The notes under the pieces: generated by a model | Databases searched by the model: none | The model's input: the letters and a program-made list of their open reading frames with translations, nothing else | What the model was told of the DNA's origin: nothing | Shown: positions 35,939-50,134 of the stretch, piece by piece | Numbering within the stretch: position 1 is the first letter of the stretch | Layout: the number at the start of each line of letters is the position of its first letter | Translations under genes and position numbers: made by a program | Assembly (NCBI GenBank): GCA_030706405.1 | Contig: JAUZOO010000003.1 | Coordinates: forward strand, 372,001 to 436,000 | Source of the DNA: Bacteroidota bacterium | Lineage (GTDB): Bacteria > Bacteroidota > Bacteroidia > Bacteroidales > JAAUTT01 | DNA length: 64,000 nucleotides | Direction of reading: 5' to 3'

Positions 35939-36055
35939 AAGATACTGTTTAAAATTTACTTAATTTATTTACGAATGCCGATTTATGATTGATGATTCGT
36001 CGTCGATAATTTAGGATCCATGTTTTTTATAAGTCATTATATCAGCAATCGTAAA

Positions 36056-37528
36056 TCAATAATTACTTTTTGCCATTAAATACTCGACATTTGCTACTGC
36101 CGTCAACTGATCGACCATCGATTCGACAAGTTTAAACTCCAGTTCAAGGCGTTTTTGTTGCATTTGCAATACTTCCTCAAGATCGGCACCTCCCGATTGA
36201 TAGGTAGCCGCGAGAATGTCGAGTGACTGGTTGGTCAGTTTTATCTGCCATTGATATTGCTCGGTTTTGCGACGGGCATTTTTCACGTCGAGCAACAGAT
36301 TCTGCAAATTGACCTGCAAATCGTTGAGCATCGCTGTTTGTTTTTCGCGCGACGCACTTTGCTGTAAATCAGCTTCGCGGCGCATGGCATTGTACTTTTT
36401 TCGATAAATAGGCAGCGTAATGGTTACCATGGGCATAACCATATCTTTACCATTATCCATGATGTCGGCTCCTTCTTTTGGCTTCAACACCATATAATCG
36501 AAACCCACGCCAACCATCGGATAACCCATACGCCGGGCCTTATCGGCCTTGGCTTCGTACGACGCCTGTTCTGATTTATACATCTTAATCATTGGATTAT
36601 GAGCCGAAATACTATCAGACAACAATTTGAAATCGGCAATAAAATCTGAAGCAATGAGGGAATCAGGCACCAATACGGGAAAATTCTGAGGCCGGTTTAA
36701 TAAACTGTTAAAAGCTGCCTCTAGCGGAATTTTTTTATCGTTAAGACTTTCGATGGAGGTTTCCAGTTCACGAATATCCATCTGAACCCGTAAAACATCA
36801 ACCATCCCTTTACCCTGTTGTGTCATTGATCCGCCCGAAACCGGCATTGATGCACCTCCTGCATTCACTGCACTCCCCGATCCCATAGAGGTTCCGCCCA
36901 TCCCACTTTTCGAGGGACTACTTTGATCGGGCTGCGAAATACCGGAAGAAAAACGTTGCGAACCGGAAGATGCATTACCTCCGGTCTTAAATCTCACCAA
37001 TGCCAGCTGCTCAAACGTCTTTAAAAACTTAAGATTCTTCTCTGCCAGCGCTTTTTCCTTATTGAGTTTGTATAACTGGTACCAGGCAGATTTCACCTCA
37101 AAATACAGACGGTTACGAGCCTCGGCAAACGCCTCAAAGCGGGCCTGAGCCATACTGGTTGCTTCGGTTTTGGAGGCTTTCAACGTTCCAAACCACGGGA
37201 ACATCTGCATAAACCGAATATCGGCCACCTGCTTGCCCATGAGTTCTTCCTTAGGCTTGATGAAATACCCGAACGTAACATCCGGATCGGGCAACGCGCC
37301 TACCTGGGGAACCATTTCGAGCGAAGCAAGATATTCATTATAAGAAGCCTTCAGCGATGGGTTGTTTTTGGCCGCAATCATCAAATAGTTGTTGATGCTA
37401 TCCTGGGAATAACCAGGTTTCAGCACACAAACTAAGATAGCTACGAGCACTATTTTTTCAACACGGAGACACAAAGGCACAGAGTTTCTATCTCGCCAAT
37501 ACTTAATATATAGATATAATTGTTTCAT
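36056..37528 (-). CDS. TolC-family outer membrane efflux channel
   Basis: 490 residues. Two outer-membrane-factor repeats are visible (NNPSLKASYNEYLASLEMVP, GALPDPDVTFGYF; YEAKADKARRMGYPMVGVGF), plus long coiled-coil helices. Residues about 181-238 are a Ser/Gly/Met-rich low-complexity insert (SGSQRFSSGISQPDQSSPSK, MGGTSMGSGSAVNAGGASM); a Met-rich segment could bind metal but may be a mere linker. The ATG at 37528 overlaps the pump stop by 4 bases (ATGA), so translation is coupled. The first ~25 residues (KYWRDRNSVPLCLRVEK) come partly from a degenerate repeat at 37453-37484. The mature protein begins after LKPGYSQ. Confidence 0.9.
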   Translation of the reverse strand: MKQLYLYIKYWRDRNSVPLCLRVEKIVLVAILVCVLKPGYSQDSINNYLMIAAKNNPSLKASYNEYLASLEMVPQVGALPDPDVTFGYFIKPKEELMGKQVADIRFMQMFPWFGTLKASKTEATSMAQARFEAFAEARNRLYFEVKSAWYQLYKLNKEKALAEKNLKFLKTFEQLALVRFKTGGNASSGSQRFSSGISQPDQSSPSKSGMGGTSMGSGSAVNAGGASMPVSGGSMTQQGKGMVDVLRVQMDIRELETSIESLNDKKIPLEAAFNSLLNRPQNFPVLVPDSLIASDFIADFKLLSDSISAHNPMIKMYKSEQASYEAKADKARRMGYPMVGVGFDYMVLKPKEGADIMDNGKDMVMPMVTITLPIYRKKYNAMRREADLQQSASREKQTAMLNDLQVNLQNLLLDVKNARRKTEQYQWQIKLTNQSLDILAATYQSGGADLEEVLQMQQKRLELEFKLVESMVDQLTAVANVEYLMAKSNY

Positions 37529-37590
37529 AAGCCATTACTTAAATTTGAAGATTGTGCTTTTTCCGTGTCACCGTGGCTCTGTGTTGAAAT
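37453..37590. repeat. Degenerate inverted repeat across the pump/TolC junction
   Basis: The segment at 37453-37484 (reverse complement CTCTGTGCC TTTGTGTCTCC GTGTTGAAAA) matches 37561-37590 at about 21 of 30 positions in opposite orientation, with GTGTTGAAA exact. It resembles the dispersed CTCTGTG/TTTGTGTC repeats found in many Bacteroidota genomes. It has been taken into the coding ends of both genes and encodes the pump's STQSHGDTEKAQ tail. Confidence 0.55.
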
Positions 37591-40500
37591 CCGTTCCCTC
37601 CAAATACACTGCAACACCGGAACCACAAACATGGTCATAATCTGGATAATCATACCGCCAAACGTTGGGATGGCCATTGGTACCATAATATCCGAGCCTT
37701 TACCAGTCGACGTGAGCACCGGCAACAATGCGATGATTGCCACGGCAGCAGTCATCATAGCCGGACGAACACGTTTTTTCCCGGCATGGACAACGGCTTC
37801 GCGCACGGCTTCGACCGTATTCGGTTTTTCGCGCTCAAACACCTGATGAATGTACGTTCCCATGATAACACCGTCGTTGGTGGCTATTCCAAACAAGGCT
37901 ATAAATCCTACCCAAACCGCCACACTCAGGTTAATGGGATGCATCTGGAACATATCGCGAAGATTGACCCCGCCAACCGAAAAGTTCATAAACCAGCCCT
38001 GACCATAAAGCCAAAGCATGATGAAACCTCCGGCAAACGCCACAAACACTCCCGAAAAATGGATAAACGAGGCGGTAACTGTTTTGAATTGGAAAAACAA
38101 AATCAGGAAAATAGCAAGAAGACTAATCGGAATTACCACCGCAAGCCGCTTGGTTGCACGGATTTGTTGCTCATAGTTCCCAGCAAATTTGTAAGTCACA
38201 CCCGGAGGCAGCTTAAACTGTCCGGAAGCAATCTTCGAATCGATATATTTCTGGGCTTTTTCAACCACATCAACCTCGGCGAATTCAGGCTTCTTATCGA
38301 AAATTACATAGTTGTTAAGAAACGTATTTTCGCTGCGAATCATCTGCGGGCCACGGCGATATTCGATGCTGGCAAGCTGTTCGAGTGGAATCTGAGCACC
38401 GCTCATCGAAGGGATGAGTATTTTACCAATATCTTCAGGAGAATTTCGCAATTCACGGGCGTAGCGAACCCTGACAGGGAAACGCTCGAGGCCTTCAACG
38501 GTGGTGGTCAAAGCCATCCCGCCAATGGCCGACTGCATCACTTCCTGTACTTCGGCAATGGAGATGCCATAACGCGCCAACGCCTCACGGTCGAGATTAA
38601 TTTCGAGGTACGGAGCTCCAACACCTCGTTCGGCAAATACCGACGAAGCTTCAACTGACGGCACTTCACGAAGAATCTTTTCAAGTTCAACCGACACCCG
38701 TTCTATGGTTTCGAGATCTGGCCCGGAGACTTTTAAGCCCATGGGTGCCCGCATCCCTGTCGAAAGCATGATAAGACGGGTTTGAATAGGCTGTAAGCGT
38801 GGTGCCGACGTCATTCCCGGATAATTGGAGGCTTTAACAATTTCCTGCCAGATGTCTTCCGGTTTATGAATCTCCGGCCTCCATTGCCGGAAATATTCGC
38901 CATTTTTATCGGCAACCAGCATATCCTTTTCAATCTTCCTAAGGCCGTCGCGTTTAACGTTATAGTTTTTCCCGTTTGCAAGAAGATAATTCCCGTCTTT
39001 GTCCACTTTAAAACGCATCCTGCGGCCATTTTCATCCAAAAAATATTCAGGTTTATAGTTGATTACGTTTTCGTACATCGTTGTCGGTGCCGGGTCGAGC
39101 GCAGAATTAGCACGTCCCCACTTGCCAACTACAATTTCAACTTCAGGAATAGCTGCCAAACGCATGTCGATGGTCGAAATAATCCAAATATTTTCTTCAA
39201 CGCCGGCATGAGGCATGGTGGTAGGCATCAACAGGAAAGAACCTTCATTGAGCGTTGGCATAAACTCTTTACCCATTCCGGGAAACGTTTTAACGGCCGA
39301 TTGCCAAACACCTGATTCCCGCATTTTATTAGGAGCCGAAAAACCGAAAACCTTATCGAAACCAAGCCAAATCAGTATTCCGAAGAAAAGTGTAAAGATC
39401 GGGATCAATAAAAATTTCCGTTTATGAGCCAGGCACCAACGCAAGACCGGTTCGTAGTGATGTACCATGAGGTTCAGAAGCGTAAGTATTACGCCGACAA
39501 TTGCGACAACGAAAAGGAAGTTAACCAAGGTACTATTCTTTGCTCCAAGCGGAAGCCATTCAATGGTAAGATAATAAACAGCCAGTAACACAGCAATGCC
39601 AATGCTGATGTATTCGGGATAACGTTTTTTGTTATCAGGCCACAAATGAGCGGTAAGGTTATTAACGCCAAACAATGCGATAACCAGCGCCATCCACGAA
39701 TGAAAAACGATGGCAAGAACAATTCCAGCAACGATCAGAAGCCCGTTCCAAACTTGTTTAATCCGTTGGCGATCGAAACGAATAGAAAACAGAATATTGG
39801 CCAGCACCGGAACCAGCACAATGCCGATAAATATAGACGAGAGCAGCGCAAACGTCTTGGTAAAGGCTAATGGTTTAAAAAGTTTCCCTTCGGCAGCCTG
39901 CATGGCAAACACGGGCAGAAAGCTGACAATGGTAGTGGCCAGCGCCGTGACAATAGCTCCCGAAACCTCGCTCGCTCCTTCGTAAATCACCTGCCGGAGT
40001 TTTTCGCCATGGGCATCTTTATTTTCGGGCATCTCAAGGTGCCGGAGGATATTTTCGATGAAGATGACGCCCACATCCACCATTACCCCAATGGCAATGG
40101 CAATACCCGACAATGCCACAATATTGGCATCGACCCCGAAATACCGCATAATAATAAAGGTCATCAAAACTGCGAGCGGCAATAGTCCTGAAACTAATAA
40201 TGAAGCCCGAAGGTTCATCACCAAAACGATGATGACGATGATGCTGATGAGAATTTCGTGTGTGAGGGCATCTTCGAGCGTTCCGATGGTTTCCTGGATC
40301 AGTCCGGCACGGTCGTAAAACGGAACAATGGTAACTTTCGACACAGTTCCATCGGGTAAGATTTTGGAAGGCAATCCAGAAGCGATCTCTTCAATCTTCT
40401 TTTTAACATTACCAATAACCGCCATCGGGTTTGAACCGTAGCGCGCCACAACCACACCGCCAACCGCATCGGCCCCGGCTTTGTCCAAACCACCTCGTCG

Positions 40501-41367
40501 GTCGCCGGGGCCAAAGCTAACCCGTGCAACGTCTTTTATCCGAACCGGCGTATTCTGATTTTCGGTAATCACGGCATTTTCGAGATCTGCGACATTCTTG
40601 ATATAACCCAATCCCCGAATCATATATTCCACCTTATTTAGTTCGATGGTTTGCGCGCCAATGTCGAGATTGCTGTTCTGGACGGCTTTCATAATCTGCA
40701 TGGTTGAAACGCCGTACGATTTCATGGCATCGGGATTAATATCCACCTGGTATTCCTTCACGAAACCGCCCACCGACGCCACTTCCGAAACACCTTCGGA
40801 GGCTGTAAGTGCATAGCGAACATAAAAATCCTGAATGGTGCGTAGTTCGTGCGGATCCCAGCCGCCAACGGGTTTGCCGGTCTTTGGGTCACGACCTTCG
40901 AGGGTGTACCAGTAAATCTGTCCCAAAGCAGTAGCATCGGGGCCTAGCGTTGGCTGAACGCCAGGAGGCAAAGTACCAGTCGGAAGCGACGAAAGTTTTT
41001 CGAGAATTCGCGACCGCGACCAGTAATACTCGATATTATCGTTAAAAATGATGTAGATGAACGACATCCCGAACATGGACGAACTGCGTATCGATTTCAC
41101 TCCGGGAATACCCAGCAGCGCCGTAGTAAGCGGGTATGTAACCTGGTCCTGGATGTTCTGCGGCGAACGGCCCATCCATTCGGTAGCAACAATCTGTTGA
41201 TTATCGCCAATATCGGGAATAGCATCGACCGGCACCGGATCTCGCGGAATAAAACCTGTATTCCAATGAAACGGCGCCGTGGATATTCCCCAAAACAAGA
41301 TAACAGCCAGAAATATAAAGGCCATCAGCTTATTTTCCAGAAAATATTTTATAATTCTGTTAAGCAT
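37525..41367 (-). CDS. CusA/CzcA-type heavy-metal RND efflux pump
   Basis: 1280 residues, longer than the ~1040 usual for CusA. RND features: EWMGRSPQNIQDQVTYPLTT, the TM4 segment with ALSGIAIAIGVMVDVGVIFI, GAIVTALATTIVSFLPVF, and the C-terminal half with FGIATNDGVIMGTYIHQVFE and RVRPAMMTAAVAIIALLPV. Extra length comes from an additional hydrophobic block after TM6 (about 530-660) and a charged periplasmic insert (YKPEYFLDENGRRMRFKVD, RQWRPEIHKPEDIW). The Met-containing segment MLSTGMRAPMGLKVSG lies in the porter region where CusA uses methionines for Cu(I)/Ag(I). It is proton-driven export of a soft metal. It overlaps TolC by 4 bases. The C-terminal ~20 residues derive from a repeat and are probably not functional. 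Confidence 0.92.
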   Translation of the reverse strand: MLNRIIKYFLENKLMAFIFLAVILFWGISTAPFHWNTGFIPRDPVPVDAIPDIGDNQQIVATEWMGRSPQNIQDQVTYPLTTALLGIPGVKSIRSSSMFGMSFIYIIFNDNIEYYWSRSRILEKLSSLPTGTLPPGVQPTLGPDATALGQIYWYTLEGRDPKTGKPVGGWDPHELRTIQDFYVRYALTASEGVSEVASVGGFVKEYQVDINPDAMKSYGVSTMQIMKAVQNSNLDIGAQTIELNKVEYMIRGLGYIKNVADLENAVITENQNTPVRIKDVARVSFGPGDRRGGLDKAGADAVGGVVVARYGSNPMAVIGNVKKKIEEIASGLPSKILPDGTVSKVTIVPFYDRAGLIQETIGTLEDALTHEILISIIVIIVLVMNLRASLLVSGLLPLAVLMTFIIMRYFGVDANIVALSGIAIAIGVMVDVGVIFIENILRHLEMPENKDAHGEKLRQVIYEGASEVSGAIVTALATTIVSFLPVFAMQAAEGKLFKPLAFTKTFALLSSIFIGIVLVPVLANILFSIRFDRQRIKQVWNGLLIVAGIVLAIVFHSWMALVIALFGVNNLTAHLWPDNKKRYPEYISIGIAVLLAVYYLTIEWLPLGAKNSTLVNFLFVVAIVGVILTLLNLMVHHYEPVLRWCLAHKRKFLLIPIFTLFFGILIWLGFDKVFGFSAPNKMRESGVWQSAVKTFPGMGKEFMPTLNEGSFLLMPTTMPHAGVEENIWIISTIDMRLAAIPEVEIVVGKWGRANSALDPAPTTMYENVINYKPEYFLDENGRRMRFKVDKDGNYLLANGKNYNVKRDGLRKIEKDMLVADKNGEYFRQWRPEIHKPEDIWQEIVKASNYPGMTSAPRLQPIQTRLIMLSTGMRAPMGLKVSGPDLETIERVSVELEKILREVPSVEASSVFAERGVGAPYLEINLDREALARYGISIAEVQEVMQSAIGGMALTTTVEGLERFPVRVRYARELRNSPEDIGKILIPSMSGAQIPLEQLASIEYRRGPQMIRSENTFLNNYVIFDKKPEFAEVDVVEKAQKYIDSKIASGQFKLPPGVTYKFAGNYEQQIRATKRLAVVIPISLLAIFLILFFQFKTVTASFIHFSGVFVAFAGGFIMLWLYGQGWFMNFSVGGVNLRDMFQMHPINLSVAVWVGFIALFGIATNDGVIMGTYIHQVFEREKPNTVEAVREAVVHAGKKRVRPAMMTAAVAIIALLPVLTSTGKGSDIMVPMAIPTFGGMIIQIMTMFVVPVLQCIWRERISTQSHGDTEKAQSSNLSNGL

Positions 41368-41390
41368 GGTTTTTCAATTAAACAATGTGA

Positions 41391-41434
41391 CAATATGCCA
41401 ATGGGGCAATTAAAAATAACACCAATATGCCAAT
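41391..41434. repeat. Direct repeat CAATATGCCAAT in the gap before the efflux pump
   Basis: CAATATGCCAAT occurs exactly at 41391-41402 and 41423-41434, with related CAATGTGAC and GGGGCAATT units around it. An inverted pair ATTAAACAAT (41377-41386) and ATTGTTTAAT (41468-41477) brackets it. Such CAATNTGCCAAT arrays recur between genes in Bacteroidota. No regulatory meaning can be assigned here. Confidence 0.5.
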
Positions 41435-41476
41435 AAATCAAATAATTGACACACGGGCTAATGACCTATTGTTTAA

Positions 41477-41857
41477 TCAACAACGGAAAGTTTGAAGAAG
41501 AGCAGCGGCATTCTCTGTTATAAGAGGCGGAGAAGCGCAGCTAAACGGATAAATAAAAGAAGATGTACTGATTTCGGAAAGAAACTCCGGCGTTTCAACA
41601 GAATATAGCACTATGGAAATTGACTTTCCGTCAAAATCAGTCTTAAAAAAAGAAACGTTATAATTATCAATAACTTTAAACTGCTTAGCTTCGTTGTGGC
41701 AGCTCTTACAATGTGCCGCACCACAACAGGATTTTTCGTGATCTACCAACGAAGTCGAAACCAGCGTACCACTGCAATAGTGCCGATATACTGTTACTCC
41801 CGACGTGGCAAGTATCAGTAAACAGACTATAAAAATATGGTAGACTTTTTTCAACAT
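41477..41857 (-). CDS. HYC_CC_PP-type small cysteine-rich protein
   Basis: 126 residues with an N-terminal hydrophobic signal (VYHIFIVCLLILATSGVTV). It shows the diagnostic order of motifs of the small Bacteroidota family named after them: YRHYCSG, then SCCGAAHCKSCHNE, then CASPPLITE near the end. The two Cys-rich motifs (CCxxxHCxxCH) look able to bind a metal or haem-like cofactor, though CKSCH also resembles a CxxCH site. It sits directly upstream of the RND metal pump on the same strand and has its own -7 box. A periplasmic metal-sensing, sequestering or shuttling role is inferred. The function is not established to my knowledge. Confidence 0.75.
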   Translation of the reverse strand: MLKKVYHIFIVCLLILATSGVTVYRHYCSGTLVSTSLVDHEKSCCGAAHCKSCHNEAKQFKVIDNYNVSFFKTDFDGKSISIVLYSVETPEFLSEISTSSFIYPFSCASPPLITENAAALLQTFRC

Positions 41858-41877
41858 TTAATTTCCAGATATGAACA

Positions 41878-41885
41878 CAAAGGTA
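41878..41885 (-). promoter_or_regulatory. -7 promoter element of the HYC_CC_PP gene and efflux region
   Basis: On the minus strand TACCTTTG, a perfect TAnnTTTG, ends 21 bases before the ATG at 41857, giving a leader of roughly 14 bases. No clean -33 TTG was found. Confidence 0.6.
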
Positions 41886-41969
41886 TGAAATAAAATTTCA
41901 GACGGTTATGTCTCTTAAAACTTTAACATTTTTTTAAACTCTTTGTTCACAATTCTTTCAGTTAAACTA

Positions 41970-42000
41970 TTGTAGTTTTTGAGTTTAAATCCTAACTTGG
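41970..42000 (+). promoter_or_regulatory. Probable promoter of the protease/glycan-binding pair
   Basis: TTG at 41970-41972, a 20-base spacer, then TAACTTGG at 41993-42000, one mismatch from TAnnTTTG. The ATG of the protease is 18 bases downstream. Confidence 0.4.
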
Positions 42001-42018
42001 TGGAAATTTACGGCTACG

Positions 42019-43026
42019 ATGTTTAAACAACCAAACCTCCTTTTTCGTCTTACTGCTATCATAGCCGCAGTTTTACTATGTTTTTCATCATTTACACGAA
42101 GCAATAAGGCTTCGGGGATTTCCGACGATCTAAAGAAGACAGATCGCATGTCGGCTCGTAAAAACCTTACTAACCCGGCCATTGACTCTATAACGATTCC
42201 CCTGAAACGGGCCGGACGACTGTTCCTGATCGAAGCAATAATTGACGACGAGGCCGGTAACCTTATTTTTGACACCGGGGCAACAGGCCTGGTTCTGAAT
42301 AAATCTTACTTCCGCAACCATACAGTCGTGGATCAGCAGAGCTCAAACGGCATTACCGGGTCGGTAGAAAAAGTTGAAAATATAAACATCGAACAAATCA
42401 AAGTTTCCGATTTACTTTTCAAAAATATTTCGGCCAACCTCGCCAATCTGGGGCATATCGAAAACCGCAGGGGCATTAAGGTCCTCGGTTTATTTGGGTT
42501 TGACCTTATTAGAGATTATGAAATCATCATCAATTCAAAAAACAATCAACTTACGCTTCACTGCATCGATAAAAAAGGAAACAGGACAGGCCTGATTTCC
42601 AAAAACTTTAACGCCAGCTATTCGCAAAAAATTGAGACTCTTAACAATATTGTTTTTATAAAAGGTAATATTGGCGGAAAAACGCTTAGGTTTTGTTTCG
42701 ATACCGGGGCAGAAACCAATGCGGTCAGCAATCTGGCGAACAAACATGTCCTCAACACAATCGCCATCAACCGAAAAACTGACCTGCACGGGGCTGGATC
42801 TGCCAAAAGCGAAGTTCTATTCGGGGTTATGAACGATTTTACGTTGGGCAACACACGGCTTAACAACATGGAAACCATTGTAACCAATCTCGAGCACCTC
42901 AACGAAGCCTATGGAATGCACATCGACGGGATGTTGGGATACAACTTCGTGACCAAAGGTATTTTATGCATCAATTTTAAAAAGAAATTACTGGGTGTTA
43001 GTTTTCCAAAAACAAGTGAATTATGA
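42019..43026 (+). CDS. Retropepsin-like aspartic protease, exported
   Basis: 335 residues with a signal peptide (LLFRLTAIIAAVLLCFSSF). Two copies of the aspartic protease active-site motif: LIFDTGATGLVL (Asp85) in the N-lobe and FCFDTGAETNAVS (Asp228) in the C-lobe. Each is followed by a hydrophobic-Gly strand (KVLGLFGFDLI; GMLGYNFVTKG). This is the two-lobed bacterial form of clan AA, close to the gag-polyprotein/PDZ-linked aspartyl proteases of Bacteroidota but without a PDZ domain. It would act in the periplasm or outside. Its stop overlaps the next start by 4 bases (ATGA), so the lipoprotein with four glycan-binding repeats is translated with it. The substrate is unknown. Confidence 0.82.
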   Translation: MFKQPNLLFRLTAIIAAVLLCFSSFTRSNKASGISDDLKKTDRMSARKNLTNPAIDSITIPLKRAGRLFLIEAIIDDEAGNLIFDTGATGLVLNKSYFRNHTVVDQQSSNGITGSVEKVENINIEQIKVSDLLFKNISANLANLGHIENRRGIKVLGLFGFDLIRDYEIIINSKNNQLTLHCIDKKGNRTGLISKNFNASYSQKIETLNNIVFIKGNIGGKTLRFCFDTGAETNAVSNLANKHVLNTIAINRKTDLHGAGSAKSEVLFGVMNDFTLGNTRLNNMETIVTNLEHLNEAYGMHIDGMLGYNFVTKGILCINFKKKLLGVSFPKTSEL

Positions 43027-44468
43027 AAGTCCTGATTAAATATATATTATTCCTATCCATTGTATTCCTGATGGCAGGTTGCAGGACTCAGTACAACCCC
43101 AATGATACCTGCCGGGTCGAAAATGGCCGGATTATTTTTCAATTGAACCTCCACTGGAACGATTCGCAGAAAATGGAAATTGCCCATCGCTTCGATCTCG
43201 ACAGTGCCTTGATTGCCCGTGTTTACAAAGAATTAAAAAACATCACCTTCAACAGTATCGAATGGAAAGTAGAGAAAATCAACCCAGATCTTGTTGAATT
43301 ATCCAAACCCGTAGATAACAATGCAATTCCGTACCTGAACCCAAACGACATTTTTATGCTCGACGAAAGCTGGCTCAAAGCTGAAGGCGAACAAGAACGC
43401 GAATCGGCGAGTTACGGGGTTAATCAATTCAATTCATCCCATATCGTTAGTTTTAAGGACGATATTGCTACATTCTTCCTACCCGGACAACAAAACGTGC
43501 AAAAAATCTATCTGGCCGGAACCTTCAACAACTGGAACACAATGCAAACGGCCATGCAAAAGACCGATTCGGGATGGGTGGTTAGTGTAAAACTACTTCC
43601 CGGAAAATACCTCTACAAATACATTATTGACGGAAAATGGAGCCTCGACCCCAATAACATCCTAAAGCAAAAAGATAGCCAGAGCAATGTCAACTCGGTG
43701 CTCTTCCGCTATAATTATCATTTCGATATTAAAGGATACCAGAATGCCCGAAAGGCCATTGTTGCCGGAAGCTTTAACAACTGGAACTCCAACGAACTAA
43801 AAATGGTCCGTACTGCCGATGGTTGGACGTTACCAATCTATCTCCGGGAAGGAACCCATGCCTACAAATTCATTATTGATGACCAATGGATGACCGACCC
43901 GGCCAACTCGGTAAAACGGCCCGATGGTAAAGGAAATAGCAATTCGTTCCTGGGAATCGGCGATAGCCATCTGTTCCAGTTAAAAGGATTTACTTCTGCT
44001 AAAGAGGTTGTGCTTACCGGAAATTTCAATGCCTGGAATACGGGTGAATTATTTATGGAGAAAACAACAGACGGATGGCAACTACCTTACATTCTTGCCG
44101 CCGGAAATTACGAATATAAATTCATTGTTGACGGGAAATGGATAACCGACCCCGACAATCCTTTCACTTCCGGATCGGGCGATCTTACCAATTCGGTATT
44201 GATCTTTAAACCGAGCTATACCTTTACCCTGAACAAATATTCCAATGCCAGAAAAATAATCATTACCGGCAGCTTTAGTAACTGGAATCCAGACGGCTAT
44301 CGTATGCTCAAAAAAGACGGGACATGGACCTTCCCATTATACCTGAAACCAGGCAAATACACCTACAAATTTATTGTCGACGACCAATGGATACTTGATC
44401 CCAACAACAAGCTGTGGGAAACCAACGAATACGGCACCAACAATTCAGTACTCTGGATTGCTCCCTGA
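43023..44468 (+). CDS. Lipoprotein with four AMPK-type glycogen-binding (CBM48-like) repeats
   Basis: 481 residues with lipobox LMAGC (Cys20). Residues 21-145 are an unrecognised N-terminal region. Four tandem repeats follow at about 150-228, 232-312, 316-395 and 398-478. Each carries a GSFNNWN-type turn (GTFNNWN, GSFNNWN, GNFNAWN, GSFSNWN), a GW or TW strand, a YKFIVD-type strand and a W..DP..N end. These are hallmarks of the AMPK beta-subunit glycogen-binding domain. The conserved aromatics suggest real alpha-glucan binding. No catalytic domain is present. It is anchored in a membrane and coupled to the aspartic protease; a scaffold or sensor for glycogen or starch is possible. I know of no described system with this pair. 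Confidence 0.82.
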   Translation: MKVLIKYILFLSIVFLMAGCRTQYNPNDTCRVENGRIIFQLNLHWNDSQKMEIAHRFDLDSALIARVYKELKNITFNSIEWKVEKINPDLVELSKPVDNNAIPYLNPNDIFMLDESWLKAEGEQERESASYGVNQFNSSHIVSFKDDIATFFLPGQQNVQKIYLAGTFNNWNTMQTAMQKTDSGWVVSVKLLPGKYLYKYIIDGKWSLDPNNILKQKDSQSNVNSVLFRYNYHFDIKGYQNARKAIVAGSFNNWNSNELKMVRTADGWTLPIYLREGTHAYKFIIDDQWMTDPANSVKRPDGKGNSNSFLGIGDSHLFQLKGFTSAKEVVLTGNFNAWNTGELFMEKTTDGWQLPYILAAGNYEYKFIVDGKWITDPDNPFTSGSGDLTNSVLIFKPSYTFTLNKYSNARKIIITGSFSNWNPDGYRMLKKDGTWTFPLYLKPGKYTYKFIVDDQWILDPNNKLWETNEYGTNNSVLWIAP

Positions 44469-44479
44469 GCAGCCTGCGA

Positions 44480-45415
44480 TTAGCCTTTCAGCACCGCGTT
44501 GCAAGCCATCACATAAGCCTCGGGAGTGGTTGACTTTTTAATCTTTTTAAGTCCTTTTTCTTTACCGGCAAGCCACATGGCAAAATACTCCCAGTACGGT
44601 TTCATTTTGTTCAACACATGCGAGTTTCCATTCAGTCGTTGGCTATTCTGATACAACAACTGGTCGTGCAATTGATCCAATGCCTTGCGAATTTCTTCAT
44701 CAGAAGCTTTTTGCCCGGTTCGAATTTCCTGCATCAGCAGCGGATTGGCAATAAGTCCGCGGCCAATCATCCATCGCGACACAAAAGGCAATTGGTCGGC
44801 TAAAGATTCAAAATCTGCGAGCGAAAAGATATTTCCGTTGAAGCATACCGGATGCGCCAGTTGCCCGGCCATCGCTGCAAATGAAGCTACATCCACATCG
44901 CCTTTATACATTTGTGATGCCGTTCGCCCGTGAACAATCACTTCGCTGAGTGGATAACGGTTTAAAACAGGAAGTAATGCCTTCCATTCATCGTTACCGG
45001 CAAAACCTAACCTCATCTTAACCGAAATACGGCAGGTCGCATTATTCAACAATCCGTCGAGAATACGGTCAATCCGATCGGGATGGGGCAACAATCCCGC
45101 TCCCATCGTTTTGCGGGTGACCATGGGATACGGGCAGCCCAGGTTCAGGTTTATTTCGTCATAACCCATCTGCTGAAGTTCGGCCACTACCGGTAACATC
45201 TCGTCGGCTTCATTACCCAACAGTTGCGGAATAAGCCGATAGCCCTGATTTTTCTCCGGAAGCACATCGCGGTACATACGCGAATCGGGTTTATGCGTTT
45301 CGATAAACGGCGAAAAGGCAGCATCAGGCGTACCAAAAAGACCGCGAAAAGCAGCACGAAAAGCGTAATCGGTAAAACCCTGAAGGGGGGCAATGTATAT
45401 CTTGTTTTCTTGCAT
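44480..45415 (-). CDS. dus: tRNA-dihydrouridine synthase
   Basis: 311 residues, a complete FMN-dependent Dus TIM barrel. It opens IYIAPLQGFTDYAFRAAF. The catalytic cysteine is in INLNLGCPYPMV, followed by KTMGAGLL. SVKMRLGF, VIVHGRTASQMYKG and WMIGRGLIANP form the flavin and tRNA site. It reduces uridines in the tRNA D-loop. Which bacterial Dus subgroup it belongs to was not determined. It is convergent with the glycan-binding lipoprotein gene (11-bp gap) and divergent from topB; each divergent gene has its own TAnnTTTG box. Confidence 0.93.
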   Translation of the reverse strand: MQENKIYIAPLQGFTDYAFRAAFRGLFGTPDAAFSPFIETHKPDSRMYRDVLPEKNQGYRLIPQLLGNEADEMLPVVAELQQMGYDEINLNLGCPYPMVTRKTMGAGLLPHPDRIDRILDGLLNNATCRISVKMRLGFAGNDEWKALLPVLNRYPLSEVIVHGRTASQMYKGDVDVASFAAMAGQLAHPVCFNGNIFSLADFESLADQLPFVSRWMIGRGLIANPLLMQEIRTGQKASDEEIRKALDQLHDQLLYQNSQRLNGNSHVLNKMKPYWEYFAMWLAGKEKGLKKIKKSTTPEAYVMACNAVLKG

Positions 45416-45438
45416 TCAAATTCTTTTAAATCGAATGG

Positions 45439-45446
45439 CAAAGTTA
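45439..45446 (-). promoter_or_regulatory. -7 promoter element of dus
   Basis: TAACTTTG on the minus strand, a perfect TAnnTTTG, 24 bases before the dus ATG at 45415. Confidence 0.6.
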
Positions 45447-45522
45447 GTGTTTTATCAATGGTTCTGTCGGGTCACAGTTTTAAAGGGTAAAATGCCAAAA
45501 TCGCATGTTGTCCAATTAACCA

Positions 45523-45553
45523 TTGGCATATTTGCTCAAATCCTGTACTTTTG
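45523..45553 (+). promoter_or_regulatory. Promoter of topB
   Basis: TTG (45523-45525), a 20-base spacer, then TACTTTTG (45546-45553), a perfect match to the Bacteroidota TTG/TAnnTTTG pattern. Transcription should start near 45560, leaving about a dozen bases before the TTG start codon. Confidence 0.7.
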
Positions 45554-45571
45554 CAACAAAATTTTAGCAAG

Positions 45572-47899
45572 TTGAAACTCTGTATCGCCGAAAAACCAAG
45601 TGTAGGAAAGGAAATAGCCCGAATATTGGGCGCCAACAACCGCCGCGACGGTTTTTTTGAAGGAAACGGATATTACATCAGCTGGACCTTCGGGCATTTG
45701 TGTACACTTAAAGCCCCGGACGATTACACTCCCAACTGGAAAAAATGGGATATGTTCCACTTGCCCATGATCCCGCCCCGATTTCAAATCAAAGTCATTG
45801 ATAATTCAGGTGTCCAGAAACAATTCGACACATTAAAATCGCTCATCGACAAATGCGACGAGGTTATAAACTGCGGTGATGCCGGAATTGAAGGAGAACT
45901 CATTCAGCGCTGGGTGCTTTCCAAAGCACAATGCACCAAACCGGTAAAACGGCTCTGGATTTCATCGCTCACCGATGAGGCCATCAAAGCCGGTTTCGAA
46001 AATCTGAAAGACAGCCACGATTACGACCTGCTTTATGCAGCCGGCAACGCCCGGGCTATCGGCGACTGGCTCCTCGGAATGAATGCCAGCCGGCTCTACA
46101 CCGTCAAATACGCCAACGGCAAAGGCGTTTTGTCCATCGGAAGGGTGCAAACGCCCACGCTCGCCCTCATTGTTAACCGCCACAACGAAATTCAAAACTT
46201 CGTTCCCGAAACCTATTGGGAATTAAAAACCGCTTATCGCGAAGTCATCTTCAACTCAACCAAACGGCGGTTTACCGTTAAAGAAGATGCGTTAAAGATT
46301 CTCGAAGAAATTAAAAACAAAGAATTCGAGATTGTTTCGTCAACCAAGAAGAAAGGGAACGAGCACCCACCAGCCCTCTTCGACCTTACCTCGCTGCAGG
46401 TGGAATGCAACAAAAAATTCAACTTCACGGCCGACGATACGTTGCGATACATCCAAAAACTCTACGAACAGAAATTCGTAACCTATCCCCGCGTCGACAC
46501 CACGTACCTGCCGGAAAACATGCATCCGAAGGTAAAACCAATCCTTGAGGGGATGAAGCCTTATGCCAAGTTTACCGAGCCACTGCTCGGCAAGCCCATC
46601 CGCAAAAGCAAAAAAGTATTCGACGACAGCAAGATCACCGATCACCATGCCATTATCCCCACGGGCGTAGTGCCTTCGTCGGGATTGATGCTTTACGAAA
46701 AACAGGTTTACGACCTCATTGCCCGCCGTTTCATTGCCGTGTTTTATCCCGATTGCGTGGTATCGAACACCACCGTCATTGGCGATGTGGATGGCAACGA
46801 ATTTTCGGCCACCGGAAAAGTGATTCTCGAAGAAGGCTGGCGGACCCTGTACCCTAAAAAGGACGACGACACCAAAGATGACGACGACCAGTCGATGCCC
46901 GTATTTACCAAAGGCGAGCGCGGCCAACACCTGCCCGACCTCCAGGAAAAACAAACCCAGCCGCCCAAGCTCCATACCGAAGCAACGTTACTACGCGCCA
47001 TGGAAACCGCCGGCAAACAGGTGGACGACCCCGAACTACGCGAACTGATGAAAGAAAACGGCATCGGACGACCCTCAACCCGTGCCAACATCATCGAAAC
47101 ATTATTCAAACGCTCGTACATCGTGCGGCAACGCAAAAACCTGGTGCCTACCATCACCGGAATTGAACTGATAAAAACCATCAACAACGAACTGTTAAAA
47201 TCAGTTGAACTGACCGGGATGTGGGAGAAAAAACTTCGCCAGATCGAGAAAAACGAATACGACCCCAAGGTATTTCTCACCGAGATGAAACAGATGGTTA
47301 TCGACCTGGTACAAGAAGTTAAACGGGAAACGAAAGCTTCGATTACTATCGAGGAAGAACCTAAAAAGCCGGAAAAACCAAAGTCCGAAGAAAAACCGGC
47401 TAAAAAAGAAGCTAAAGCTGCCAAAGAAGACGAAACCGCAGTTTGCCCCAAATGCAAAAAAGGCAACATCCTGAAAGGTAAAACGGCCTACGGATGCAGC
47501 GCTTTCCGCGAAGGTTGCGACTTTAAAGTAGAGTTTGAACAACAAGGCAAGAAACTTACCGATAAACAACTGTTCGCCCTCATCAAAAAAGGCAAGACAC
47601 CCAAAATTAAAGGTTTCAGCATTGATGGAAAAAAAATCAACGGAGCCATCGTCCTGAACGACGAATTTAAACCCATTTTTGAAGCAGAAGAACCAGAGCC
47701 CAAAGCCGAATCTAAGATAACACAAGAGTTACGATGCCCTAAATGCCAGAAAGGACTTATGATGAAAGGCAAATCGGCCTGGGGGTGCAGCCGCTTCCGC
47801 GAAGACTGCAAATTCATCATTCCCTTTGACGTACTTCAGAAAGATTACAACACCACCGAACTAACCCCGGAACTACTGAAAAGCATTAGTATCGGCTAA
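45572..47899 (+). CDS. topB: DNA topoisomerase III (type IA), TTG start
   Basis: 776 residues. The start is taken as TTG at 45572 because the family begins MKLCIAEKPSVGKEIARIL and no ATG is near; the promoter also lies too close for the frame's earlier TTG at 45551. Toprim domain (CIAEKPSV, NCGDAGIEGELI), catalytic FVTYPRVDTTYLP (Tyr305), and EATLLRAMETAGKQ with IGRPSTRANIIETLFKR. After an acidic/Lys-rich linker (EEEPKKPEKPKSEEKP) come two C-terminal zinc-ribbon-like repeats with CPKC ... GCSAFREGC and CPKC ... GCSRFREDC. The enzyme decatenates DNA and resolves recombination intermediates. It is longer than E. coli Top3 (653 residues) because of the C-terminal repeats. Confidence 0.93.
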   Translation: MKLCIAEKPSVGKEIARILGANNRRDGFFEGNGYYISWTFGHLCTLKAPDDYTPNWKKWDMFHLPMIPPRFQIKVIDNSGVQKQFDTLKSLIDKCDEVINCGDAGIEGELIQRWVLSKAQCTKPVKRLWISSLTDEAIKAGFENLKDSHDYDLLYAAGNARAIGDWLLGMNASRLYTVKYANGKGVLSIGRVQTPTLALIVNRHNEIQNFVPETYWELKTAYREVIFNSTKRRFTVKEDALKILEEIKNKEFEIVSSTKKKGNEHPPALFDLTSLQVECNKKFNFTADDTLRYIQKLYEQKFVTYPRVDTTYLPENMHPKVKPILEGMKPYAKFTEPLLGKPIRKSKKVFDDSKITDHHAIIPTGVVPSSGLMLYEKQVYDLIARRFIAVFYPDCVVSNTTVIGDVDGNEFSATGKVILEEGWRTLYPKKDDDTKDDDDQSMPVFTKGERGQHLPDLQEKQTQPPKLHTEATLLRAMETAGKQVDDPELRELMKENGIGRPSTRANIIETLFKRSYIVRQRKNLVPTITGIELIKTINNELLKSVELTGMWEKKLRQIEKNEYDPKVFLTEMKQMVIDLVQEVKRETKASITIEEEPKKPEKPKSEEKPAKKEAKAAKEDETAVCPKCKKGNILKGKTAYGCSAFREGCDFKVEFEQQGKKLTDKQLFALIKKGKTPKIKGFSIDGKKINGAIVLNDEFKPIFEAEEPEPKAESKITQELRCPKCQKGLMMKGKSAWGCSRFREDCKFIIPFDVLQKDYNTTELTPELLKSISIG

Positions 47900-48206
47900 T
47901 ACCATCGGCACAATAAACTTTGGGATATTCTTACAATATCCCCTACAAACTATGCAGTTAAATTTACGATCCATTTTTACGACTCTCCGTTATTAGTAAA
48001 ATTCCGGCACACTAATTGCCTTATATCCTGTAAAATATCTAATTACAGATAAACAACTTACAAAAATGTATCATTTAATCCCTAATCAAGATATTATTCA
48101 GCATTTTCAAATTAAATACCATTAAAACAACGTTTTAAAAACAAGCACCAAAATGTAGGAACCCAAAACGGAAATTACATTAACGTAACCTTTTAAAACC
48201 CAAAAT
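47900..48206. other. Gene-free spacer with a weak hairpin
   Basis: 307 bases between topB and the NifX-like gene. It is AT-rich and has no open frame with coding character. GGGATATT/AATATCCC (47922-47942) forms a perfect 8-bp stem with a 5-base loop 22 bases after the topB stop. It lacks a T-run, so terminator activity is uncertain. No promoter box with a clear TAnnTTTG was found before 48207. Confidence 0.5.
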
Positions 48207-48605
48207 ATGAAAATTGGAATCCCGGTTAACAGCAGCACTTCCGATTTAAAGAAAATCCGCACGTGCAGTTTACACAACAGCGATTATTTAGGAATTTATG
48301 ATCTAAAGGAGGAAAAACTCAAAATCCTTCCCGTAAATAACTACAATTCATCAATTAACCAGGAATTCGTTGAAATCTTAAAATTGTATAATATCTCGGC
48401 AGTAATCAGTTCCGATTTTCGATTAACGGCCATAAAACAATTCCGGAAACATTGCATCACCCCTTACAAAGCCGATGGAGACTCTCTTCACGAAAACATA
48501 GAACGCTTCAGGCAGCAAAAACTAAACCGTTTTTCGGTTTACGACCTTGGCAACGATTCCGCTTGTGCCGCCGATTGTACCAGCTGCCTCGAATCGTGCA
48601 GGTGA
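48207..48605 (+). CDS. NifX/MTH1175-like Fe-Mo cofactor-family protein with Cys tail
   Basis: 132 residues. MKIGIPVNSSTSDLKKIRTC, DYLGIYDLKEEKLKILPVNN, ILKLYNISAVISSDF and CITPYKADGDSLHENIERF follow the ribonuclease-H-like fold of the dinitrogenase Fe-Mo cofactor biosynthesis family (NifX, NafY, MTH1175). The protein ends in SACAADCTSCLESCR, a four-Cys cluster able to bind metal or an Fe-S unit. No nif genes are present, so nitrogen fixation is not implied; many anaerobes have such stand-alone members. It is followed 41 bp later by a 102-residue unknown protein, probably in the same transcript. The biochemical role is unknown. Confidence 0.65.
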   Translation: MKIGIPVNSSTSDLKKIRTCSLHNSDYLGIYDLKEEKLKILPVNNYNSSINQEFVEILKLYNISAVISSDFRLTAIKQFRKHCITPYKADGDSLHENIERFRQQKLNRFSVYDLGNDSACAADCTSCLESCR

Positions 48606-48646
48606 AATCAACAACGCTCATTGTTAAACATTCAAATATAAAAGCT

Positions 48647-48955
48647 ATGAATATACCTTTTCGTCCTCTTGGAAAAGCCAAAGAAATCATCGATTCAATA
48701 GGCATAAACATCTCGTATGCGTTTGACGACTTGTTATTTATTGAAGATTACCCGATTATAATCCGTTTTGACGACGAGAATCCGGGGAACTTATTTTTTC
48801 ATACCGATATAGACTGCAACCCTGCCGAATTTGAACAAATAAGAAAACGCCTGACAGTTGCCGCAAAACTCAGGGAGTGGACTATTACCGATGCCGGAAG
48901 GTACCAGATTGCACCTAAAGATGGCGTAGAAGAACTGGAAATATCTTTTTTGTAG
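48647..48955 (+). CDS. Unrecognised 102-residue protein
   Basis: The start is the ATG at 48647; the frame extends upstream to 48452 but that part overlaps the NifX-like gene and has no protein-like character. The product is acidic and soluble with a mixed alpha/beta pattern (LGKAKEIIDSIGINISYAF, LLFIEDYPIIIRFDDENP, FFHTDIDCNPAEFEQIRKRL, LEISFL). No signal peptide, membrane span or cysteine cluster is seen. It follows the NifX-like gene by 41 bases and runs up to a strong bidirectional terminator. I do not recognise the family. Confidence 0.7.
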   Translation: MNIPFRPLGKAKEIIDSIGINISYAFDDLLFIEDYPIIIRFDDENPGNLFFHTDIDCNPAEFEQIRKRLTVAAKLREWTITDAGRYQIAPKDGVEELEISFL

Positions 48956-48961
48956 GGAGTG

Positions 48962-48999
48962 CGAATTGAACGGATAAGACGAGTTATCCGTTCAATTCG
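48962..48999. terminator. Bidirectional terminator between convergent genes
   Basis: A perfect 16-bp stem, CGAATTGAACGGATAA and its complement, with a 6-base loop, followed on the plus strand by a T-rich run (tgttttatctttttttctttt). It ends the plus-strand pair and the minus-strand operon that stops at 49004. Confidence 0.88.
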
Positions 49000-49003
49000 T
49001 GTT

Positions 49004-50134
49004 TTATCTTTTTTTCTTTTTGCCTTTAGGCTTTTCGAGGAGCAGCTGTAATTTATGGTCGAGCTCTTCGCCTTTAAGGTTTTTAGCGATGATAATGCCT
49101 TTGGGGTCAATTAACACATTGGATGGAATGCTGCGTACTCCATAGGTTTTGGCAGCTTCGTTGCTCCAAAATTTAAGATCCGATACATGATGCCACGTCA
49201 ACTTATCGGCTTTAATAGCTTCGAGCCATGCGTCTTTTTTCTTATCGAGCGATACGCCAAGAATGTCAAATCCTTTATGACTGTACTTCTTATAAACTGC
49301 CACAACATTCGGATTTTCCTGTCGGCAGGGCTGACACCACGAAGCCCAAAAATCAATAAGCAGATACTTTCCATACAACGACGAGAGTTTCAGAGGTTTT
49401 CCCTCTGGCGTATTCATGGTAAAATCGACAGCCGGCTGGCCCACTTCTACCTTTTTGAGCACATCAATATACTCCTTCAACATCTTCACATAAACCGTTT
49501 TCTTTACCGTGGCATCAAAAGTATTGGTAATTGAATCGAGCTCTTTTAATTCAATTTCGTGAACTAGTTTCGACCAGGTTAGATACGCCGAAACAACCGA
49601 CGATTTATTGGAAAGAACATACTTTTTAACAGCCTTGCTCAACGCTATGCTAAGCGCTTCGTACAACGAGTCGTTACGCTGCATCAACGCGGTATTATTA
49701 TTCTTCTGAGCATTTTTATAGACATTATATACCGAATCGAGCTTGGACGTGGTAGACTTCTGAGTTCCCCAGAAAGCCTCATATTCTTCCTGAACCTTCG
49801 AGCCTGAAATTCGGGCCGAAGTCAGTCCTGTTTTTGACGACTCGATATTAATTTCATGATTATCCACAAATACCGAAATATACGGCAAGGTATCCGAAAT
49901 TACCACGCGGTACATTTCCGGCATATCCACATGACCGGTAAATGTGAAATTTCCGCCCTGCGAAACCGTTGAATCAACAGCTTTCCACTCCCCATCGATA
50001 TAACGCTTCAGAAAAACGTTACCATCGGGCAGATCGGTTATGTTTCCGAAAATTTTGTAGCCAATCCGCGGTGCCGGATTGTTGCACGCTATGACCCAAA
50101 CGAATAAAAACAATGGTAGTAACCGTTTTATCAT
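49004..50134 (-). CDS. TlpA-like thioredoxin lipoprotein with DUF4369-type N-terminus
   Basis: 376 residues with lipobox WVIAC (Cys17). The N-terminal half (YKIFGNITDLPDGNVFLKRY, GGNFTFTGHVDMPEMYRVVI) is the DUF4369-type domain often attached to Bacteroidota thioredoxins. A helical linker follows, then the redoxin domain (GQPAVDFTMNTPEGKPLKLS, LLIDFWASWCQPCRQEN with the WCQPC active site, YGVRSIPSNVLIDPKGII with the cis-Pro). The tail is very basic (KPKGKKKKR). It is probably a periplasmic thiol reductase for envelope proteins. The gene starts inside the meaB stop (ATGA overlap), so it is the last gene of this operon. Confidence 0.9.
   Translation of the reverse strand: MIKRLLPLFLFVWVIACNNPAPRIGYKIFGNITDLPDGNVFLKRYIDGEWKAVDSTVSQGGNFTFTGHVDMPEMYRVVISDTLPYISVFVDNHEINIESSKTGLTSARISGSKVQEEYEAFWGTQKSTTSKLDSVYNVYKNAQKNNNTALMQRNDSLYEALSIALSKAVKKYVLSNKSSVVSAYLTWSKLVHEIELKELDSITNTFDATVKKTVYVKMLKEYIDVLKKVEVGQPAVDFTMNTPEGKPLKLSSLYGKYLLIDFWASWCQPCRQENPNVVAVYKKYSHKGFDILGVSLDKKKDAWLEAIKADKLTWHHVSDLKFWSNEAAKTYGVRSIPSNVLIDPKGIIIAKNLKGEELDHKLQLLLEKPKGKKKKR

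Follow-up and report, generated by a model that had tools for sequence, protein, structure and literature searches.

A 64,000-nucleotide stretch of a Bacteroidota genome (contig JAUZOO010000003.1, positions 372,001 to 436,000; hereafter the window) encodes an exported pepsin-like aspartic protease and, directly downstream, an exported protein with four glycogen-binding-type carbohydrate-binding modules (CBMs). The two genes are strictly paired across many genomes, their products retain conserved catalytic and ligand-contact residues and carry export-type leaders, and the protease has a predicted pepsin-like fold. We tentatively favor a reading, to which we assign slightly less than an even chance, in which an obligate two-gene unit supplies two subunits, the CBM protein for glucan binding in a targeting or regulatory role and the pepsin-like enzyme for catalysis.

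Pairing of the two genes across Bacteroidota

A preliminary description of the window had reported an exported DTGA/DTGA protease gene overlapping a four-module CBM gene by ATGA, and the open reading frames (ORFs), motifs and Pfam matches all bear this out. Both ORFs lie on the + strand and share four nucleotides, ATGA, at 43023-43026. The description had also proposed a two-protein system, conceding that rare adjacency of the genes elsewhere would weaken the functional link; such rarity is not seen.

The CBM protein was sought in 295 genomes of the same order and in draws of 395 genomes from the class and 395 from the phylum, which partly overlap; the thresholds of 1e-30 (class draw) and 1e-25 (phylum draw) could miss short forms. 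Within the order, 21 genomes including that of the window match most of the protein at more than 400 bits, with one match (genome G157) split as 425 + 191 bits over two contigs. The next match scores 75 bits, and full-length relatives are clearly separate in score from single-module proteins. All 41 CBM-first loci from the order and class searches, the window included, have the protease gene immediately upstream in the same orientation, and three further loci from the phylum draw also carry it upstream in overlapping frames (44/44 CBM-first loci). Starting from the protease, in named genomes and with a protease-only alignment, the CBM protein adjoins on the same strand in 79 of the best 80 loci among at least 298 confirmed relatives. 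The eightieth locus (L161) is cut by a contig end 82 bases past the protease; its one CBM-profile match (31.8 bits), more than 2 kb upstream of the protease, was left out of the CBM set. In the same order, 22 genomes score above 200 bits for the protease, namely the 21 CBM carriers and genome G139, which is considered below.

De-duplication by identical last 120 residues left 110 of 120 CBM proteins and 111 of 121 proteases. Fifty of the 110 distinct pairs show the 4-nt overlap and 93 overlap to some extent, although starts were taken from the longest ORF, which makes overlap and signal-peptide counts approximate. In L126 the protease ORF stops 197 bases before its partner, probably through a frameshift in that assembly. 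Besides the pair, no gene family recurs in more than 7 of the 41 loci, and the SusC/SusD or glycoside hydrolase neighbors of a Sus-type locus are not conserved there (4-19 kb per locus and 22 kb of the window, clusters not annotated singly). Because the pairing holds in both directions and no other neighbor is conserved, the conserved unit appears to be exactly two genes. Five loci from one family (L095, L096, L098, L101, and L102) have six more downstream gene clusters in common on the other strand, which is plain within-clade synteny.

The trees of the two proteins resemble each other, with a patristic-distance correlation of r 0.88 over the 105 pairs long enough for comparison (best of 500 shuffles, 0.11) and 52 of 102 splits in common. 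Such agreement would be expected if the two genes travel together, and it is not proof of contact because shared ancestry was not removed, there being no third gene for the purpose.

By annotation, the carriers include Prolixibacteraceae, Lentimicrobiaceae, Cyclobacteriaceae, Chitinophagales, Flavobacteriales, Phaeodactylibacter, Ferruginibacter, and many Mucilaginibacter, and most look environmental. All phylum-draw matches fall in the same class, the share of that draw from outside the class not being shown. One pair-bearing locus is labeled alphaproteobacterial (L150), but all 10.8 kb of it match the Bacteroidales-labeled L151 at 97% identity, so its label is probably a binning or labeling error.

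Features of the protease and the CBM protein

The features of the pair are as follows, in window coordinates; residue counts for the modules are out of 110 CBM proteins.

42019-43026, + strand: exported pepsin-like (bilobal) aspartic protease, 335 residues (Asp_protease_2 9.1e-19, two stretches; AlphaFold2 model; VIA-align Z 21.7 to 9iy9)
42271-42282, + strand: first catalytic motif DTGA, residues 85-88 (D85 in 110/111 aligned proteases, the remaining one gapped)
42700-42711, + strand: second catalytic motif DTGA, residues 228-231, followed by E232 (D228 and E232 in 111/111)
43023-43026, + strand: ATGA start/stop overlap of the protease and CBM genes
43023-44468, + strand: exported four-module glycogen-binding-type protein, 481 residues (AMPK1_CBM 7.5e-60, four stretches)
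43023-43091, + strand: signal peptide of the CBM protein, with lipobox-like MAG-C20 and conserved Q23 (invariant in the 24-sequence alignment)
43107-43316, + strand: variable N-terminal alpha/beta domain of the CBM protein, residues 29-98 (predicted by AlphaFold2)
43413-43430, + strand: linker motif YGVNQF preceding module 1 (G132 in 105/110, N134 in 103/110)
43491-43700, + strand: CBM module 1 (E 4.0e-14; W171 110, K199 106, W206 108, N224 107)
43737-43964, + strand: CBM module 2 (E 5.1e-15; W254 102, K282 85, W289 102, N307 101; 4 gaps)
43995-44204, + strand: CBM module 3 (E 1.1e-13; W338 100, K366 91, W373 97, N390 100; 9 gaps)
44241-44462, + strand: CBM module 4 (E 5.8e-15; W421 96, K449 96, W456 98, N474 99; 10 gaps)

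The window protease consists of a hydrophobic leader and two Asp_protease_2 stretches (Pfam). Two D-T/S-G motifs lie in one chain, as in bilobal clan AA enzymes, although the glycine of the second motif is replaced by alanine in 13 of 111. Residues D228, E148, E232, and G157 are invariant in the 111 proteases, and D85 and G307 are each absent from a single gapped row. A hydrophobic-hydrophobic-Gly psi-loop motif, as defined in PMC4814920, follows each catalytic motif; its glycine is G157 (111/111) or G307 (110/111), and hydrophobic residues precede both in the consensus. The AlphaFold2 model (mean predicted local distance difference test [pLDDT] 88.6, predicted template modeling score [pTM] 0.86) has the two-lobed fold, with 844 of 997 aligned chains at Z of at least 8. 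Its best structural match is the putative Bacteroides fragilis endopeptidase 9iy9 (Foldseek 9e-15; VIA Z 21.7, root-mean-square deviation 3.2 over 256 aligned residues), followed by fungal pepsins and renin at Z of about 17-18. The match to 9iy9 can also be found by sequence (phmmer 2e-4). A weak hairpin near residues 55-67 of the model looks like a flap. The protease scores 32.1 bits against the TIGR02281 clan AA aspartic protease subfamily, below the cut-off of 57.95.

Hardly any column is conserved ahead of the protease domain. No conserved pro-segment is therefore visible, and something else may control the enzyme; control by the partner is plausible. Leaders are hydrophobic in 106 of 111 proteases and contain a loose AxA-type pattern in 106 of 111. 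We infer that the proteases may be processed differently from their partners or retain an anchor.

Past a score gap, the order contains eight weaker protease relatives at 57-108 bits, seven of 409-427 residues and one of 307. None of these eight loci, which span 2.6-5.5 kb and in some cases stop at a contig end, includes a CBM protein. The long forms (L200-L206) constitute a sister family of exported aspartic proteases, probably of the 9iy9 type, with about 120-150 extra N-terminal residues in cis, to which no Pfam name could be given in the four proteins scanned.

The CBM protein has a leader, then about 125 residues to which no Pfam family is assigned, then four AMPK1_CBM modules (199.6 bits against a cut-off of 26.8, in four stretches); all 24 aligned orthologs match this profile, and each module reaches E 1.1e-13 or better in the whole-genome profile search. 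The elements that the preliminary description had noted, FNNW/FNAW/FSNW, YK[FY]I[IV]D, and W..DP, recur in each of the four modules. The best-scoring solved relatives are the glycogen-binding domains of AMPK-beta. In rat AMPK-beta1, residues W100, K126, W133, and N150 are critical for carbohydrate binding (PMC4032982), and alteration of contact residues reduces glycogen binding (PMC2642990). Mapped by eye on sequence motifs, the equivalents of these four residues are kept in all four modules, in 80-100% of non-gap rows. The resulting sixteen predicted ligand columns have a mean identity of 96% across the 110 proteins, against a module median of 58%. Glucan binding by the modules is thus strongly predicted from sequence.

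All four modules are present in 100 of the 110 sequences. Of the remaining ten, five are truncated at contig ends (L085, L128, L162, L167, L188) and five possess two C-terminal modules (L105-L108, L198), the two-module forms having been detected first as a weaker group at 128-154 bits. Between proteins, identity is 46-53% for modules at the same position and 37-41% for modules at different ones. On a tree of 400 modules, 5 changes of position suffice, whereas shuffling gives a mean of 221. Because the modules group by position, the sequences indicate that the four-module array is old and that its positions are not interchangeable. The X25 starch-binding profile (PF22058) also matches (46.2 bits against a cut-off of 27; 24/24 orthologs at E of 0.01 or less), overlapping the AMPK1_CBM stretches, which score far higher. 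The model for the type IX secretion plug protein (NF052315) reaches 40.8 bits, below its cut-off of 100.

Conservation within the protein is lowest in the region ahead of the modules, with a median column identity of 30% over residues 21-120 against 58% in the modules. The AlphaFold2 model shows this region as a small alpha/beta domain (block means of 87-94 pLDDT over residues 29-98). Residues of about 101-130 are modeled with low confidence (block means 56-63) and probably form a flexible linker, after which the motif block rises to 76. A fold search of the domain against the PDB gives no Foldseek match at E of 0.001 or less and VIA Z scores of at most 4.1, and a profile comparison against the N-terminal region of the sister proteases finds nothing. 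Two Mucilaginibacter proteins (L186, L189) have four modules and lack the domain entirely, the linker motif following soon after the leader. In three of the two-module forms (L106, L107, and L198) the module profile also matches the N-terminal part, so by sequence the domain is exchanged there while the pairing with the protease is kept. The [YFWH]GxN pattern of the linker motif is absent in 14 of 110 proteins, including the two-module L105, L107, L108, and L198.

The preliminary description had called the CBM protein a lipoprotein, which does not hold as a family property. By pattern, 97 of 110 leaders fit only the Q-rule of exported Bacteroidetes proteins, in which a type-I signal site is followed by Q (PMC10653852); 4 are lipobox-like only, 5 fit both and 4 neither. 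Three Q-rule patterns gave 92, 102, and 100 of 110. The window copy is among the 9 of 110 with a lipobox-like pattern and also has Q23, at the signal-peptidase-I site of most orthologs; its lipidation is uncertain and, judging from these leaders, would be at most a local variant.

The pair is flanked upstream by a gene for an HYC_CC_PP-family protein and downstream by one for a Dus-family enzyme, both unrelated to it by profile matches, and a large ORF beyond the Dus-family gene is topoisomerase-like by eye. Further upstream, positions 36056-41857 hold heavy-metal-efflux-like genes on the other strand, which by eye encode an outer-membrane-type protein and a large pump of the RND type; the HYC_CC_PP-family protein lies within the same interval and is likewise on the other strand. 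As described earlier, no enzyme for alpha-glucans is nearby: none is seen by eye among the ORFs of positions 36000-50000, the range checked. Elsewhere in the window genome, single AMPK1_CBM matches occur at G000:C15:339979-340209 and G000:C21:125838-126059, in open frames of about 115 residues. Many genomes of the same order (for example L040-L048) encode a protein of about 800 residues with one related CBM.

Possible roles of the pair

If the favored reading is right, the products of both genes act together outside the inner membrane. The four modules would bind alpha-1,4/1,6-glucan (starch, glycogen, or maltodextrin) with avidity and the pepsin-like enzyme would supply catalysis, the CBM protein either bringing the protease to glucan-rich material or setting its activity by glucan. 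We favor a subunit role because the constant companion of the protease is a multivalent predicted glucan binder, no conserved pro-segment is seen in the protease, and the sister family carries its extra sequence in cis. The glycogen-binding beta subunit of AMPK offers a parallel for such control, and its domain, which inhibits the kinase allosterically when bound to glycogen (PMC2642990), provides a precedent for the mechanism. A more specific version is possible though doubtful: a glucan-gated extracytoplasmic protease, in which the multivalent glycogen-binding subunit would sense polymeric alpha-glucan and switch or aim its dedicated protease, as a bacterial counterpart of AMPK logic.

Several observations weigh against a glucan-binding subunit. 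A polymeric alpha-glucan would not readily be expected in the periplasm, and the literature searched yielded no experiment on these proteins; the physical interaction, the ligand and the control of proteolysis by glucan are what we infer. The Q-rule pattern is common in the CBM proteins (about 100 of 110) and rare in the proteases (12 of 111), so the partners may be processed or placed differently. The weakest contact column, K282 of module 2, is K in 85, R in 15, and H in 6 proteins, with 4 gaps. Genome G139 has its protease near a contig end, apparently that of L161, and no CBM match in the order search; it is either incomplete or an exception to the pairing. Of the 61 CBM-tree splits with good support, nine disagree with the protease tree. 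Finally, alpha-glucan metabolism does not discriminate carriers from non-carriers, the latter hand-picked for size and completeness: GH13 is found in 21/21 and 26/27 genomes, respectively, and a GlgA-type synthase in 21/21 and 27/27.

The strict pairing would also suit a CBM protein that is the dedicated substrate of the protease, which would mature, shed or turn it over, perhaps by cleavage in the linker ending in YGxNxF. This account owes its weight to the linker, which is probably flexible and whose motif is conserved (G132 and N134) and kept even where the N-terminal domain is lost (L186, L189). Cleavage there is conjecture, the [YFWH]GxN pattern is missing from some pairs, and the domain that cleavage would set free varies between proteins, can be replaced, and is dispensable. 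On balance we consider a substrate role rather unlikely. The preliminary description had singled out region 21-145 for cleavage by the protease. As an essential substrate this region is a poor candidate, because it is poorly conserved and is replaced by a different domain or lost while the pair persists. That no conserved pro-segment is seen, together with an invariant gene order and an adjoining partner, could instead suggest that the CBM protein acts in trans as an inhibitor, chaperone, or pro-segment, from which glucan binding would free the protease. No inhibitor fold was found, however, the N-terminal domain being without a convincing PDB match, and few parts of the protein are as well conserved as the predicted glucan-contact set; we regard such a role as improbable.

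Two further explanations loosen the link between the proteins or between the modules and glycogen. Export-type leaders on both proteins would also be expected if the two acted separately in one pathway, for example in degrading a protein associated with glucan granules or particles, with co-expression as their sole link. We think this quite improbable, since pathway partners that make no contact should rarely shrink to one invariant pair without a third neighbor, as across the 41 loci. Least probable of the alternatives, in our judgment, is that the CBM48-like modules bind a ligand other than alpha-glucan, such as an envelope glycan or a protein, and that the link to glycogen is mistaken. In its favor, the fold family is a broad one: the CBM_48, CBM53, and X25 profiles also pass their cut-offs, and there is a match to the type IX secretion plug model, albeit below its own. 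On the other side stand the AMPK-beta contact residues kept in all four modules and the single-module relatives of about 800 residues in the same genomes, which coincide with GH13 alpha-amylase-family matches where coordinates were compared (for example G202, G030, and G106). A glucan-binding subunit remains the reading that we favor, and it should be easy to test because both proteins are small and predicted to be probably soluble without their leaders.

Comparison with known systems

The component families are known, and from the sequences compared here their obligate pairing appears new as far as the literature searched extends: among the matches listed in full-text literature, with subscription journals mostly outside its coverage, none describes an aspartic protease with a glycogen-binding partner. 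The pair joins two known families, with a strictness usual for dedicated partners, across much of a Bacteroidota class. If the CBM protein controls the protease, glucan sensing would be linked to proteolysis outside the cytoplasm, a link that we know of in no other bacterial system.

The nearest solved protease, 9iy9, and its relatives of about 410-430 residues share the bilobal fold of the window protease, but differ in the extra N-terminal sequence of the seven long forms and in the missing CBM partner at all eight weaker-relative loci. Other bacterial aspartic proteases include the retropepsin-like RloA and RimB, which are also encoded beside a functional partner; unlike the pair here, RloA forms a dimer and its partners are of the ATP-grasp and transglutaminase types (PMC12239564). 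Shewasins are a further example, although shewasin D accumulates in the cytoplasm (PMC4814920) whereas the present protease carries an export-type leader. The available portions of these two papers mention no glucan-binding partner for RloA, RimB, or the shewasins.

SusE/SusF and Sas20 are, like the CBM protein, non-catalytic extracytoplasmic proteins with tandem starch-binding modules (PMC9112005). Their modules are of the X25 type, whereas the window protein fits AMPK1_CBM far better (199.6 against 46.2 bits), and they occur in a Sus or amylosome context, whereas the CBM-protease pair has no conserved gene neighborhood.

The AMPK beta system is eukaryotic and cytosolic, with a single module and a kinase as its partner. 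The pair described here differs in being bacterial and exported and in having four modules and a protease partner. Even so, the AMPK beta glycogen-binding domain (CBM48; PDB 2lu3, 2f15, and 1z0n) belongs to the same sequence family and has the same four glucan-contact residues, and it regulates its catalytic partner (PMC2642990), as we propose that the CBM protein may do.

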